The position numbers and the translations under genes are program-made. Shown here piece after piece: positions 15,881 to 59,493 of a stretch of DNA of 64,000 nt (positions within the stretch are counted from its first letter, which is position 1; each line of letters starts with the position of its first letter). Under the pieces are notes generated by a model. That model searched no databases. It was not told the DNA's origin and saw only the letters and a program-made list of their open reading frames with translations. Source of the DNA: Collinsella aerofaciens (GTDB lineage: Bacteria; Actinomycetota; Coriobacteriia; Coriobacteriales; Coriobacteriaceae); the NCBI RefSeq assembly GCF_015548375.1, contig NZ_JADMWW010000005.1, positions 1 to 64,000 on the forward strand, given 5' to 3'.

Positions 15881-16087
15881 AAAGTTGAAATAAAGATTCA
15901 ATCTTGGGTCGGGTCCATTTTCGAACTGGCAAGCTGAGGATAGCTGAGCTCTCGATGGCGCAGGAGGCATCTTTCGCCACCGCAACACCGCTTGGCGCGA
16001 GCTGCACGCCGTGGGGCGCAAACGGACCGCACCCCCGCAAGCGGCGCGTGCCCGATGTGGCAAAATCGAACTACTTAAGGGGGCCGA

Positions 16088-16810: not shown

Positions 16811-18087
16811 TGGTCTCCTCGGTCGAAATGATCCTTTGGGCAATCCACCACGCCACGACGCTGCTCTTTGGCGTCTTTGCCTCGGCGGCGCTGTGCGGTG
16901 TCGAGATCAACCGGCGTCATGCGCTTGAACTGGTGCTGGTCGGCGTCGTGACCGGCGCTGCCTTTTCGATCGCCAATGCCGTCGGCGGTGAGCTTTTCGC
17001 CCGCCAGGTATATCCGCTCGTCGTGCATTTGCCGCTCGTCATCTATTTGTGCGCGCGCTACCGCCTGAGCCCGCTGCTTGCCGTGCTCGGCATTACGAGT
17101 GCCTATCTGAGCTGCCAGTTCAGCAATTGGATGGGCATCGCCGCATTTGCCGCAACCGATTCTCAGATCGCGTACTATCTGGCGCGCATCGCGACCACAC
17201 TCGCCGTCTTTGCCGTCCTGTTGCATTGGGCCGGCGACATCGGTCCGCGCTTGGCGATTAAAAGCACCACCGAGCTGGGCATCCTTTTAATCCTGCCGCT
17301 CGTCTATTACGTCTTTGACTATGCCACCAACGTCTACACCACGCTGTTCCACTCGGGCTCGGTGGTGACGGTTGAGTTTTTGGCATTTGCGCTCTGTGCC
17401 TTCTATCTTATGTTTCTTGCCGTTTACCTGCGCGAATACGAAGAAAAGGAAACCGCCGAGCGAGAGCGCTGGATGCTCGAAACCCGCGACAGCGCCGCCA
17501 TCAAAGAGCTCGAGGCTTGGCGTCAATCTGGGCGCGAGCTGTCGATTCTGCGCCACGACATGCGCCACTTCCTACGCGGCCTGGCCGCTTTAATTGAGGA
17601 GGGCCACACCGACGAGGCGCTCGATCGCATCGACGAACTCTGCGAAGCCGGCGACCGCACCGCCGTACGCCGCTTCTGCGCCAACGAGACCGTAAACATC
17701 GCGCTTTCGTCATTTAACTCGGATATCAATAGAAACGGCATTACCGCCAACCTGCGCGCCGCCGTACCCGAAACCATCCACGTAGGTGACGCCGACCTGT
17801 TTAGCGTGCTCTCAAATGCCTTGGAAAACGCTATCACCGCCGCAAGCGCCGCACCCCAAGGAAAGCGATTCGTCGACTTTGACCTGCGATTAGAGGACGG
17901 CCAGCTGCTGCTGTTAGTTTCCAACACGTTTGACCGCACGCCGCGCATGGTCGACGGCATGCCCGTAGCCGGGCACACCGGACACGGCTTTGGAACCAAG
18001 AGCATTAAGCTTGCCGTCGAACGCATGAACGGCAACTGCCAGTTCCGCATTAACGGCGATCGGTTTGAGCTGCGCGCTGTGATGTAG
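16810..18087 (+). CDS. GHKL sensor histidine kinase (AgrC-like)
   Basis: This 425-aa membrane kinase is the partner of the preceding regulator. The N-terminal half (about residues 5-207) is six or seven hydrophobic helices. A linker then leads to the phosphoacceptor motif LRHDMRHF (His249). The ATPase domain has the N-box SNALENAI (about 336) and the G-box HTGHGFGTKSI near the end. Overlap with the regulator stop (ATGA) means tight coupling. The ligand cannot be predicted. After the stop, a GGCGCCG/CGGCGCC structure (18092-18143) lies between this gene and the convergent next one. Confidence 0.9.
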   Translation: MVSSVEMILWAIHHATTLLFGVFASAALCGVEINRRHALELVLVGVVTGAAFSIANAVGGELFARQVYPLVVHLPLVIYLCARYRLSPLLAVLGITSAYLSCQFSNWMGIAAFAATDSQIAYYLARIATTLAVFAVLLHWAGDIGPRLAIKSTTELGILLILPLVYYVFDYATNVYTTLFHSGSVVTVEFLAFALCAFYLMFLAVYLREYEEKETAERERWMLETRDSAAIKELEAWRQSGRELSILRHDMRHFLRGLAALIEEGHTDEALDRIDELCEAGDRTAVRRFCANETVNIALSSFNSDINRNGITANLRAAVPETIHVGDADLFSVLSNALENAITAASAAPQGKRFVDFDLRLEDGQLLLLVSNTFDRTPRMVDGMPVAGHTGHGFGTKSIKLAVERMNGNCQFRINGDRFELRAVM

Positions 18088-39959: not shown

Positions 39960-40033
39960 CGTTGTTCCTTTCCCGTTTCTTATCACGGTGCCGAGCAACG
40001 CCTCGACACCGATCCTCCCGTAGCCCACTCACG

Positions 40034-53112: not shown

Positions 53113-54353
53113 ATGGGACTCTTGAAAGCTGGATTGGGAGCTGCCGGCGGCGTCATGGCCGACCAGTGGAAGGAATATATCTACTGCGAATCGATGCCTG
53201 CTGACGTCTTGGCCTGCAAGGGCGTCAAACGAACCGGCGGCCGCAGCTCCAACACACACGGCGAGGACAACGTCATCTCCAACGGCTCCGTCATCGCCGT
53301 CAACGACGGCCAGGGCATGCTCGTGGTGCAAAACGGCAAGATCATCGAAGTCGCACTGGAGCCCGGCGAGTTCGTCTTCGATACCGGCAGCGAGCCAAGC
53401 GTCTTTAGCGGCAACCTGGGCGACTCCATCAAGGAGACCTTCGCCAATATCGGCAGCCGCTTTACCTTCGGCGGCGACGCGGGCAAGAACCAGCGCGTCT
53501 ACTTCATTAACACCAAGGAGATTATCGGCAATAAGTACGGCACCGCCTCGCCCGTGCCCTTCCGCGTGGTCGACAACAACATTGGCCTGGACGTCGACAT
53601 CTCCGTGCGCTGCAACGGCGAGTATTCGTACCGCATCACCAACCCGCTGCTGTTCTACACCAATGTATGCGGCAACGTGACCGATAGCTACACGCGCGAC
53701 AAGATCGACAGCCAGCTTAAGTCCGAGCTGCTCACCGCCCTGCAGCCCGCCTTTGCCAAGATCTCGGAGATGGGCATCCGCTACAGCGCCATCCCCGGCC
53801 ACACCACCGAGCTCGCCCGCGCGCTCAACGAGGTCCTCTCCGCCGACTGGCGTGACCTGCGCGGCGTCGAGATCGTGAGCTTTGGCGTCAACTCAATCGC
53901 CGCCTCGCAAGAAGACGAGCAGATGATCAAGGACCTGCAGAAGGCCGCGGTCATGCGCGATCCCACGATGGCGGCCGCCAATATCGCCAGCGCCCAGAGC
54001 GACGCGATGCGTGCGGCAGCAGCCAACCCCAACGGCGCGATGGCCGGCTTTATGGGCATGGGCATGGCAGGCGGCATGGGCGGCATGAACGCCAGCCAGC
54101 TGTTCGCTGCCGCCAGGCGCAGCAGCAGGCCGCCCCGCAACCGGCTCCGGCCCCCGCCCCCGCACCGGCTCCCGCCGCCGCGCCTGCGGCCGGCACGTGG
54201 ACCTGCAGCTGCGGCGCCACCAACACCGGCAAGTTCTGCCCCGAGTGCGGCAGCCCCGCGCCTGCCCCGGCACCGGCCAAGTGGTTCTGCCCCAACTGCG
54301 GTAGCGAAAACGGCGGCAAGTTCTGCAGCAACTGCGGAACGCCCAGGCCCTAG
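53113..54353 (+). pseudogene. SPFH-domain protein, YdjI-like, frameshifted
   Basis: The first roughly 333 codons encode a YdjI-like SPFH protein: MGLLKAGLGAAGGVMADQWK, a band-7 fold with VDNNIGLDVDISVRCNGEY and EIVSFGVNSIA, then a Gly/Met-rich segment (GFMGMGMAGGMGGMNASQ). At about 54111 one base is missing. In the present frame the tail becomes a Pro/Arg/Ala-rich nonsense chain ending at 54369. Adding one C restores a Gln/Ala/Pro linker and two zinc ribbons (CSCGATNTGKFCPECG, CPNCGSENGGKFCSNCG) ending at TAG 54351-54353. This is a real mutation, a sequence error, or less likely recoding. GGAAGATCACC precedes ATG 53113. Confidence 0.85.
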
Positions 54354-54433
54354 CCCCTCTATCTGGTAATTGGCGGGGGATCCGCCGCCCCCGCTCCTGC
54401 TTCTATGGGTTTCGTTCGATTAAGGGGGACACC

Positions 54434-55385: not shown

Positions 55386-56006
55386 TTAGCGCTCCATGTT
55401 GGGAACAATGCTGCCCTCCGTTACCGCGTGCACGGCCAGGCGCATGATGTTGTCGTAGCCGGTCTTGTTGAGAATCTCCGAGATGCGGCGCTTGATGGTG
55501 CCCTCGCTCATAAACAGCTCGGCCGCGATCTCGCGGCGGCTTTTGCCCTCGCAGGCAAGGCGCAAGATCGACAGCTCGACATCGTCGAGGGCCGCCGTGC
55601 CCGAGAAGATGCTCTCGGGCGGCTTGGGAAACGTGCAGTAACCCGCCAGCGTGGAGCGCATCACGGCGAATAGCTCGTCGATACCGACGTTCTTGTACAC
55701 AAAGCTGTCGACGCCCGCCTCGCGCGCCTGGTCCACAAAGGTGATTTCGGGCATACCCGTCATGATAATGACGCGGCACTCGGGCAGTTGTTCTTTAATG
55801 CGCGCCGCCGCCACGATGCCGTTGGAATCATGCTCGGTGCATACGTCCATCAGTATCATGTCCGGGCGCTCCTTGAGCGCGACACCCAAGGCCTCGGAAG
55901 CATCGGCAATGGCGGAAACAACGGTCATATCGGGCTGGTCGCCAACGGAACGCGCCAGGCTCTCGCGCAGGATGGCCTGGTCTTCGACTATAAGGACGCG
56001 GATCAT
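55386..56006 (-). CDS. NarL/FixJ-type response regulator
   Basis: This 206-aa regulator has a receiver domain (1-about 125) with Asp9, Asp54 (MILMDVCTEHDS) and Lys near 104, and a LuxR-type helix-turn-helix at the C-terminus (ILRLACEGKSRREIAAELFM, SEGTIKRRISEILNKTGYDN). ATG 56006 has AAAGGAG; it overlaps the kinase stop by four bases (ATGA). It receives phosphate from the preceding gene product, and it is the last gene of a three-gene sensory operon. Confidence 0.94.
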   Translation of the reverse strand: MIRVLIVEDQAILRESLARSVGDQPDMTVVSAIADASEALGVALKERPDMILMDVCTEHDSNGIVAAARIKEQLPECRVIIMTGMPEITFVDQAREAGVDSFVYKNVGIDELFAVMRSTLAGYCTFPKPPESIFSGTAALDDVELSILRLACEGKSRREIAAELFMSEGTIKRRISEILNKTGYDNIMRLAVHAVTEGSIVPNMER

Positions 56007-57504
56007 GAGCTTCTCCTTTGAGCTGTGGCGCTGGCGTTGAGCGGGATGGACACCGCAAGCGTAAAGGGCGGGGCGGCATGGATTTCCAGACAGCCGCCCA
56101 GATCTTGCGCGACATGCCTCATACCTGGGATACCCGTTCCCTCGCGATACGATACGGGTGCAGGCGCGCCGTCGTTTGATACCGTCATGTGGGCAATGGC
56201 ACCGCCATCCGACCCCTCCTGCCACAGGCGCACTTGGACTTGGTGAGCCTGCGCATGCTTGGTGGCATTGGTCGACGCCTCGCGGATAATCTGCAAAAAG
56301 GCGGCAGCGACGTGTGCATCGTCCGGAAGCGATCCATCCACATCGATCTGCACGCTCACCAGGCCAAAGGCATGAACGATATCGCCGAGCTGCTCCGCCG
56401 GCTCGCTGTCGCCACCGCTACGCAGGTCGGCGGCAATCGAGCGCAGCAGCGGGTCAATCTGCTCGAGCGACTTGTCATCCAGACGCCCCTCCTCCAAGTA
56501 TCGATGGAGAATGGACAGGCGCTGCCCGATCACGTCGTGTACGCGGGCGCGCATACGCAGGTAGGCCGCATTGTCGGCAACCTTTTTGACTTCTTCGATC
56601 TGGGCCTGGAGCTCTTGGCCCGCAAGCTCGAGCAGGTGGTTGGCCTGCGCCAGACGGTCGTGGGCATGTGCGTACTCCGTCACGTCCAAGCCGATAATGC
56701 GCTCAAAGGGGCGGCCCGAAACCATAACCTCATCGCACGCGAACAGACGAATCTCGGAGGGGGAAACCTCGACCACCGCACGTGCCTCCCCAAAGCGGTC
56801 CAGGTCGATTCGAACGCGGTTTTTGCTGCTCTCGGGCATCTGCGCACTGAGTTTTCGAAGACCGCCCCACGCATCGCTCATGTCGTGCAGGTCGGTGGGC
56901 ATGTGAAGCTCCACAAGGTTCCTGCGCATGCAGCGATTCATGAGCAGAGGGCGGCCCTTCGAATCCAGATACAGAATGCCGACGGGGATCACGTTAATAG
57001 TCTCGATCGTCGAAAACGCCGTGATGTCCTCCTGGCGGTTGCGCACGTCCATCAAAAGCGCCGCGACGGAGCGGAACAGGAAGAACGCGCCCTCCGCGAT
57101 AAGGACTGCGGGCCACGCCGAACCCATGACGTAAACAACCGGCGGCGTCGCGGCGGCAACAAGCAGCAGCTCAACCATCATGACGGGACGACGATAATGC
57201 ACCATAAGGACTACGCCATAGGCGGCAATCGCGGCGTTGAGCCATAGCAGCGCGCCCGCCGCCTCGGCGACGACATAGAGCGGCGCCACCAGATACGACC
57301 CGCTCGACGCGAACAAGATGACGGCCGAGATAATCAAGTGCAGCACAAGGCTCGACTCATAGACGCAAATCACTTTGCGGTTGTAAGACGAACGACGCGA
57401 TGCGATGCGATGAGCGGAACATGGATGGTCTGCAGGCATGCCACCAAGGCAAAGAGCACATCGAGCGCAACGATCTGGGGAAGGATAAGCGGCATCTGCA
57501 TCAT
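56003..57504 (-). CDS. NarX/DesK-type histidine kinase with out-of-frame 5' end
   Basis: The kinase partner of the preceding regulator has five or so membrane helices, a PAS-like region (VIPVGILYLDSKGRPLLMNR), the HisKA_3 phosphoacceptor RARVHDVIGQRLSIL and a HATPase (IREASTNATKHAQ, EGTGIPGMRHVAQDLGG). The natural start is ATG 57504/57501, overlapping the previous stop (TGATG) and coding MMQMPLILPQIVALDVLFAL. That frame stops after 44 codons because a GCGAT repeat (57397-57411) has three copies. With two copies the frame runs straight into the kinase (about 498 aa). As sequenced, translation needs GTG 57511 or ATG 57439, giving proteins lacking the first helix. Confidence 0.85.
57397..57411. 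repeat. (GCGAT)3 pentanucleotide repeat in kinase gene
   Basis: Three perfect head-to-tail GCGAT units lie within the coding start of the histidine kinase. Losing one unit would change the frame by five bases and join two otherwise separate reading frames, as expected for a slipped-strand switch. Confidence 0.8.
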
Positions 57505-59303
57505 CACTCACCCGCCCGCGGCATCAGCACGATCATACGCAGCTGACCGGCCTCGCCCTCAAGACGATACGCCACGTTACGCCCCTGCAGTGCAACCTCG
57601 AGCTCGTGCGCGGCGGGCGTCTGCGACAAGTCTTCCTCGTCGTTGGAAAAGAGTGTGGCACGCAGCTCCACGCTGCACGAATCGTGTTCGCTCAGATGGT
57701 ACATGAGTGCCGGATGATCGGTGGTGTAGGCGAAAAACGCAAAGTCATACACGCAGTCGTACAGCGCGCTTACCGTACTGGCATGCATCGGACGCTGTAT
57801 GGCGATGATCGAAGCGCAGTCGACATCGATGGTGCGCAAGTCACTTGCCAGCTCGTTGGCAATGAGTTGGATGCGATCGCGGTCAAATCCGCTTTCCCCA
57901 TGCTGCGCCAACGTGAGCGAGCCCTTGCGTTTGCAATAGGCGACGAGCATCTTGGCACATTGCAGCATGCGATAGCGCTCATGCGAGGATGCCTCATCGG
58001 TTAACGGCGGCAGCGAGCCCAGCAGCCCATACATCTCATCGAGCGCGCGGGCAAGCGCCTGGTCGACATCTTTGACCAGCAAGGCCTCGGCCTCCTGGTC
58101 GGCAAGATGCGTCTTAAGATCGTAGTCGGTCGTAAGTAGCTCGTTTTGGCGCTGCAATTCCATGCGCCGGTACGCCAGCTCGCGATTGAGCTCGTTGAGC
58201 TCCGATACGTCTTGGGCGAGCAATGCCGATCCGCCTAGCAGTGGGAAGGCGCGGTACATCACATCGGGATCGGACGCCACGGTAAAGGCGTGGGCATGCC
58301 CGTGCTCCTGAGCGCGCAGCTCTTCGCGCACACCCGCCGGAATCGGCTTTGATACCGGCGTGGCATAGACTTCCTGCAGGTCGCGCGTTATAACTTTAAG
58401 ATCGAGCGGCAGGGTGGCGAAAATGTTGGCAATGCCGTGGTACGACGGAATGACGCCGCAATCGAGGCAAATCTCGAGCGTCACCACGCACAGCACGCAA
58501 TAGACGAGCGAAAAGTTGAGCTTCCATGCCCAAGGCACGCGCAGGGCGTACGAAATGGCAAAGAACGCGCCGCCCAGCAGCACGAGTGCCGCCGTGCCCG
58601 AAAAACGTCGGATACGGAAGGACGATGACCGACCCACCAAAATGAAAAAGGCGACAAAGTTAAAGGCCGTCCATATCAGAACGGCAAAATAGCCCCAGCC
58701 GTACGTGTAATCGTTACTCCAGGTTTCACTCGAGCGATCGAAATGAAAGACCTGTTGGTGAAAATCGTTGGTAAGCACAAACCCAATGAGCAGGATGGCC
58801 GCGATCCACAGGGCTGTGCGGTAGCGGCGACCCGCACGATGTTGCTCCAACCCTGCAAGGCGCAGGCCGCACAGCTGGTAGAGGAGCGGAATGAGCGTCA
58901 TGGGCACGTAGTACAGGTACCACAGCACGGTGGCATAGAACGGCGTGAACGACTTGTACTTGAGGATGACCTCGATCATCCACAAGGCGCTGATGGTGGC
59001 AACGGCAACGAGGCGCCGGCGCAAGACGTAATCCAGACAGCGCAGATAGACCAGCACACCCCAGATTGAGAACGCGACGGCAGCGAGGAGCAGCGGAATC
59101 GAGCTCGAATGGATAAGCCCGTCCACGACTTCTTTGGACACCTCGTTATAGATGGGCACGGTGTTGGAGAGCTTGGGATCGGAAGCGAATGACGCCGGCA
59201 AGACCGCCAAAAGCAGAAGAAACAGTGCGGTTATGACGCCGGCAATGACGAAGGCGCGGCGACGGTACACCAGGTGCGTTATGCCAACGAGGAATCGCGG
59301 CAT
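57504..59303 (-). CDS. multi-helix membrane sensor protein
   Basis: This is a protein of about 599 aa, with about eight membrane helices in the first 330 residues, in the style of histidine-kinase N-terminal 7TM sensors. A PAS-like and helical linker with coiled-coil features follows (ELNELNRELAYRRMELQRQN). The C-terminal region resembles a kinase/ATPase domain in outline (KRKGSLTLAQHGES, IQLIANELASDLRTI) but has no phospho-His or N/G boxes that I recognise. It is probably a ligand-sensing partner of the kinase and regulator that follow with overlapping codons. Start uncertain: ATG 59303 is adopted, and ATG 59387 is possible. Confidence 0.65.
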   Translation of the reverse strand: MPRFLVGITHLVYRRRAFVIAGVITALFLLLLAVLPASFASDPKLSNTVPIYNEVSKEVVDGLIHSSSIPLLLAAVAFSIWGVLVYLRCLDYVLRRRLVAVATISALWMIEVILKYKSFTPFYATVLWYLYYVPMTLIPLLYQLCGLRLAGLEQHRAGRRYRTALWIAAILLIGFVLTNDFHQQVFHFDRSSETWSNDYTYGWGYFAVLIWTAFNFVAFFILVGRSSSFRIRRFSGTAALVLLGGAFFAISYALRVPWAWKLNFSLVYCVLCVVTLEICLDCGVIPSYHGIANIFATLPLDLKVITRDLQEVYATPVSKPIPAGVREELRAQEHGHAHAFTVASDPDVMYRAFPLLGGSALLAQDVSELNELNRELAYRRMELQRQNELLTTDYDLKTHLADQEAEALLVKDVDQALARALDEMYGLLGSLPPLTDEASSHERYRMLQCAKMLVAYCKRKGSLTLAQHGESGFDRDRIQLIANELASDLRTIDVDCASIIAIQRPMHASTVSALYDCVYDFAFFAYTTDHPALMYHLSEHDSCSVELRATLFSNDEEDLSQTPAAHELEVALQGRNVAYRLEGEAGQLRMIVLMPRAGE

Positions 59304-59454
59304 GGCTAAGAGCCTGCCGCCCCTGGGATCCGCCACCGGCGCGGATCGGGCGGCCGCATGGCCGATATGTCGCTCGCGGGTACCCATAGTGCTTTTAGTG
59401 TACCGACAGGCAGGCTCAAAAAACGGGCCGCATGTCCCAAAATCCGTAGACGGC

Positions 59455-59493
59455 AAAGCGCCCGACGAGCACAAACTGCTCGCCGGGCGCTTT
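59455..59493 (-). terminator. terminator after the second GH1 gene
   Basis: AAAGCGCCCGGCGAGCA / TGCTCGTCGGGCGCTTT with a five-base loop lies between structured element F and the sensor operon. It can act in either direction, but only the minus strand has a gene to end. Confidence 0.65.

Follow-up and report, generated by a model that had tools for sequence, protein, structure and literature searches.

The window, a 64 kb stretch of Collinsella aerofaciens DNA from a draft genome of 60 contigs (2,455,383 bases, 99.99% complete), carries a three-gene unit on its minus strand that comprises a HisKA_7TM membrane protein, a sensor kinase and a LuxR-type response regulator. The nearest named matches of the kinase belong to C. 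aerofaciens strains and to uncultured Collinsella, at 85-88% protein identity, and a further named match is found in C. bouchesdurhonensis at 68%. The features of the unit are as follows:

57504..59474, minus strand: upstream gene, the HisKA_7TM partner (Pfam), whose stop overlaps the kinase start
57509..57511, minus strand: candidate start GTG 57511, weak Shine-Dalgarno pairing (-2.6 kcal/mol, spacing 2)
57370..57504, minus strand: helix-1 open reading frame, 44 codons from ATG 57504, closed by a premature TGA at 57372-57370
57437..57439, minus strand: candidate start ATG 57439, weak Shine-Dalgarno pairing (-2.8 kcal/mol, spacing 2)
57397..57411, minus strand: ATCGC array of three perfect units, the period-5 run extending to 57412; third unit private among the genomes examined
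57371..57373, minus strand: in-frame GTG 57373, overlapping the premature stop as GTGA; no Shine-Dalgarno pairing found
56003..57396, minus strand: rest of the sensor kinase, open and conserved, with predicted TM2-TM5, PAS-like segment, dimerisation helices and HATPase_c
55386..56006, minus strand: downstream gene, the response regulator, with Response_reg receiver and GerE (LuxR-type HTH)

Pfam matched no ATPase domain in the HisKA_7TM protein (57504-59474) or in its L005 copy, and the C-terminal half of the protein has no match in Pfam or NCBIfam. The unit thus presents a 7TM sensor region without a matched kinase domain, lying directly upstream of a separate membrane kinase. In the kinase itself, HATPase_c was found in all nine aligned members at E<=1 (best 7.3e-7), the window kinase scoring E 4.6e-5 and 24.3 bits, slightly under the curated cut-off of 26.4. 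HisKA_3 gave no Pfam match in the window kinase or in the aligned members; an invariant motif surrounds His320-Asp321 of the L002 kinase, which we take to resemble an H-box. As in NarX/DesK-type systems, a cognate LuxR-type response regulator adjoins the kinase, and the nearest solved structure by sequence in the PDB is DesK (E 1.2e-6), in a match confined to the cytoplasmic end of the kinase. Bacillus subtilis DesK shares with it a C-terminal catalytic region and the pairing of a multi-pass membrane sensor with a LuxR-type regulator, DesR being of that type. Unlike DesK, the present kinase appears to have a PAS-like segment after its membrane part, as judged from a low-confidence model, and it is accompanied by a separate HisKA_7TM partner gene. 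The AlphaFold model of a relative's kinase, computed with nine sequences, is of low confidence (mean pLDDT 61.3, pTM 0.33) and was therefore used solely for the rough order of helices, tentatively placed at residues 7-26, 28-35, 40-65, 81-101, 106-114 and 118-166. A PAS-like segment and then a catalytic region may follow, these domain names being read, with low confidence, from the order of the elements.

The kinase gene is interrupted close to its start. A preliminary description of this DNA had pointed to a short repeat that puts the first hydrophobic helix and the remainder of the kinase in different frames, and all of the coordinates it gave are borne out. ATG 57504 shares bases with the upstream gene's stop (57506-57504), giving TGATG, and the frame that this ATG opens runs for 44 codons, with its last base at 57370; the start homologous to that of the relatives' kinases is ATG 57501. 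This frame contains, at 57397-57411, three perfect units of GCGAT (read as ATCGC on the minus strand), which belong to a period-5 run of 16 bp or 3.2 units. The premature TGA is reached because of the frameshift, and downstream of the array the kinase frame continues without a stop over more than 460 codons. Removal of one unit does join the helix to the kinase, since two units give read-through into a protein of 498 aa; more generally, the helix is in the kinase frame with 2 or 5 units and out of it with 1, 3 or 4. The two alternative starts that had been proposed, GTG 57511 and ATG 57439, are indeed in the kinase frame. When a relative's intact kinase was used as a protein query, the locus was split, residues 1-36 matching 57394-57501 and residues 30-497 matching 56006-57409, and this two-frame split in an independent protein search goes beyond chance.

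The tract alone is less striking than its effect. When the 64 kb window was simulated 60 times with a first-order Markov model, a pentamer of at least three units appeared in 7 of the simulations, so that such a tract is unremarkable in itself, or only mildly unusual. It is also the sole pentamer array of at least three units in 394,505 bases, a survey sample comprising the window itself (64 kb) and an aligned region of about 66 kb from each of five relatives, and there is therefore no sign of these genomes using such arrays. The window holds no homopolymer of 8 or more bases (2.4 expected) and no dinucleotide run of at least 5 units (3.5 expected), a scarcity that may mean that tracts liable to slip are avoided in this MutS-less lineage.

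Comparison with relatives can reveal which form of the tract is the older one. A DNA search of 43 genus genomes, one per species, gave matches in 26, of which 23 (the window's own genome included) matched across most of the query; G014, G016 and G022, with short weak matches, were left out. Nine named loci are, for the most part, apparently the same genomes as those of the DNA search and were counted once. In the multiple alignment the extra 5 bp are absent from all 22 relatives with a full-length homologue, and they are absent as well from L007, apparently an additional strain. An intact kinase of 497-500 aa, with the helix in frame, is present in 21 of the 22. The remaining relative, C. aerofaciens D31t1_170403_C12 (G003, L075), also does without the extra 5 bp but has a TAG at kinase codon 24, within helix 1; its sequence at the site is identical to that of L004 and its kinase frame is otherwise open. 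From this distribution the two-unit, in-frame form can be read as ancestral, and the window as carrying a derived, private tandem duplication. The relatives' period-5 run measures 1.6-2.6 units and is often imperfect (2 to 2.6 units in 19/22, fewer than 2 in 3/22), so no slippage-prone tract is conserved.

These results bear directly on the proposal in the preliminary description that slipped-strand gain or loss of one ATCGC unit acts as a phase switch, toggling helix 1 within the population. Its structural half stands, in that the array puts the first helix out of frame here and relatives have it in frame; its functional half, the switch, finds no support. The frame arithmetic works, the lineage lacks MutS, and a sensor kinase, FlgS of Campylobacter jejuni, has been described as phase variable (PMC3930126). 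Like flgS/flgR and other simple sequence repeat contingency loci, as far as they are described there, the locus has tandem units inside a signalling gene, and the frame changes when one is gained or lost; unlike them, it has three units only, and none of the 22 relatives carries a longer array. Two phase-variation surveys set their pentamer cut-off at five or more units (PMC6321876, PMC5953494), above the three seen here. A tract kept and length-variable among relatives is likewise not what we find, the third unit being present in none of the 22 and the tract imperfect in several. Searches of the literature by title or abstract returned no report of phase variation in Collinsella, searches on Collinsella mutation rate, frameshift or within-host evolution gave nothing useful, and no further copy of the locus was found in viral contigs or plasmids. 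With three units only and no longer tract in any relative, we therefore regard an evolved switch as very unlikely; a plain mutation suffices.

Sequence divergence can also be used to place the event in time. Over the 33 codons of the helix frame, comparison with 21 relatives gave pS of 0.33-0.54 and pN of 0.054-0.089, and the rest of the kinase gave dN/dS of 0.106-0.156 against the same relatives, similar to the 0.106-0.189 found for that part among eight pairs of relatives; the more distant G012 was left out of these comparisons. Since pN is low relative to pS, the helix frame has been under purifying selection for most of the divergence and was in use until recently, and the frameshift is therefore recent. 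The continued conservation of the helix frame is also what a switch would call for: it fits a recent mutation and a part-time-off allele equally well, and a population containing ON cells would lead one to expect it just as much.

How unusual such a lesion is can be judged from the surrounding genes. Across about 66 kb around the locus in the window and five relatives, we counted as private any break that was present in one genome and contradicted by all five others. The window has two private frame breaks (54111 and 57406), G001 and G023 have one each, and G002, G017 and G006 have none. The second break of the window, 3.3 kb from the array, results from the loss of one base at 54111-54112 within an SPFH/Band 7 gene (53113-54369). 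This deletion shifts the cysteine-rich C-terminal part of the SPFH/Band 7 gene out of frame. Four other candidates were set aside: the difference at 16080 falls shortly before an ATG, and G017, G001 and G023 read there as the window does; the missing base at 16884 belongs to G023; and breaks flagged at 39977 and 57403 did not recur in a stricter test that took only the longest open reading frame per place. With breaks in the window and in two of the five comparison genomes, private frame breaks are ordinary in these genomes, and a plain recent mutation is enough to account for the one in the kinase.

The repair background is compatible with such events. MutS had no match in any of the 43 genus genomes (a control search recovered it from 11 of 14 named genomes), and none was obtained for NucS in the window's own genome (0/1; control 7/14). 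The search for MutL by PF13589 returned general ATPase matches. All Coriobacteriia analysed in one study were without MutS and NucS (PMC5290159). This background makes uncorrected slippage plausible, although it is not specific to the kinase locus.

A more trivial origin of the third unit would be an error of assembly or consensus, the true genome having two units. The genome is a draft of 60 contigs, the array is known from the assembly alone, and the second private frameshift lies only 3.3 kb away, at 54111; against this, two of the five comparison genomes have private breaks of their own. At 16 bp the array would, moreover, fit inside a short read, and also inside the usual assembly word, and duplications of 5 bp are untypical of base-calling errors. 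We consider an error of this kind very unlikely.

What we think probably happened, with good though incomplete confidence, is a recent slippage mutation that lowered expression of the kinase or cost it helix 1, and not the evolution of a switch. The codons of a conserved Leu-Ile-Ala-Ser-Arg-Arg segment give rise to an incidental two-copy ATCGC repeat, to which recent replication slippage would have added a third copy, in this genome alone. The resulting shift of +5 cuts the kinase after its first transmembrane helix, so that the normal start no longer gives a full-length protein. At most, some kinase without helix 1 might still arise, through reinitiation at the GTGA overlap or initiation at a weak start further downstream. 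One sensor input would then probably be lost or weakened, with the response regulator remaining intact. As slippage can undo a tandem duplication, loss of one unit could in principle revert the lesion; nothing points to reversal at the rate of a switch.

The shorter kinase deserves consideration in its own right, as the product of an internal start or of reinitiation, with its altered sensor input being tolerated or even selected. A hint in this direction, which counts against simple loss of function, comes from G003, where the nonsense codon falls in the same helix and the frame beyond it stays open, as though loss of helix 1 were tolerated via a shorter protein. Both kinase breaks, that of the window and that of G003, are independent and fall before residue 45 of 497, which simple loss of function does not predict; with two events, too few to decide, and the clustering in helix 1 noticed post hoc, we treat it as a lead only. 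The overlap of the premature stop with the in-frame GTG 57373 could permit reinitiation, but Shine-Dalgarno pairing is weak or absent at 57511, 57439 and 57373, both of the first two falling short of the -6.4 kcal/mol of the normal start. GTG 57289 has better pairing (-5.5 kcal/mol), and a start there would also drop the second helix. In DesK, a five-TM analogue, TM1 and TM5 carry key sensing elements (PMC6879721). If the present kinase works like DesK, a form lacking helix 1 should, by analogy, be a poor sensor.

Mycobacterium tuberculosis, to our knowledge also an actinobacterial lineage without MutS, offers a useful comparison. Its essential-gene indels cluster at gene ends, and alternate starts have been suggested to rescue the N-terminal ones (PMC8339072). 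The resemblance lies in short gene-breaking indels that are possibly reversed. The two cases differ in that scars were shown there in 5977 isolates (PMC8339072), whereas the present set has one genome per species and no scar is seen in the kinase gene. We regard a tolerated or selected helix-1-less kinase as an unlikely but not far-fetched reading. A variant that combines it with the switch, in which pentamers of 2 to 3 units would slip often without mismatch repair and toggle helix 1, the GTGA yielding a helix-1-less kinase at three units so that the sensor response is altered instead of silenced, strikes us as very improbable.

The lesion may also belong to a wider pattern. Counting the window's own genome, one or other of the sensor genes is broken in 3 of 23 genomes. 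The gene affected is the kinase in the window and in G003. In G004 it is the 7TM gene, where an internal stop at residue 315 of the HisKA_7TM partner (L063; also L002) is accompanied by an intact kinase and regulator. Stops at residues 25 and 27 of the L010 7TM gene lie upstream of its likely true start and so were left uncounted. It is possible that the whole sensor module is being lost in the clade, the three-unit allele then being an early pseudogene, and this reading, which overlaps with a recent slippage mutation as we describe it, we entertain seriously while stopping short of favouring it. Besides the three broken genomes, it draws on the finding that a full-length kinase homologue occurs in just 23 of the 43 genus genomes. 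Set against it are the response regulator, full length and intact in all 23 genomes, and the low dN/dS of the kinase throughout; the 7TM count, in addition, is to be read with the coverage of that gene, which begins only at about residue 159 in most genomes and at residue 283 in G023.

Were the switch real after all, signalling in a genus common in the human gut would be subject to heritable toggling at this locus, and very short repeats could act as contingency loci in lineages without mismatch repair. As it is, the case illustrates that a switch may be suggested by one genome on its own and yet find no support once relatives are compared. The locus marks a two-component sensor pair in Collinsella in which 3 of 23 genomes have a break, the regulator being retained.
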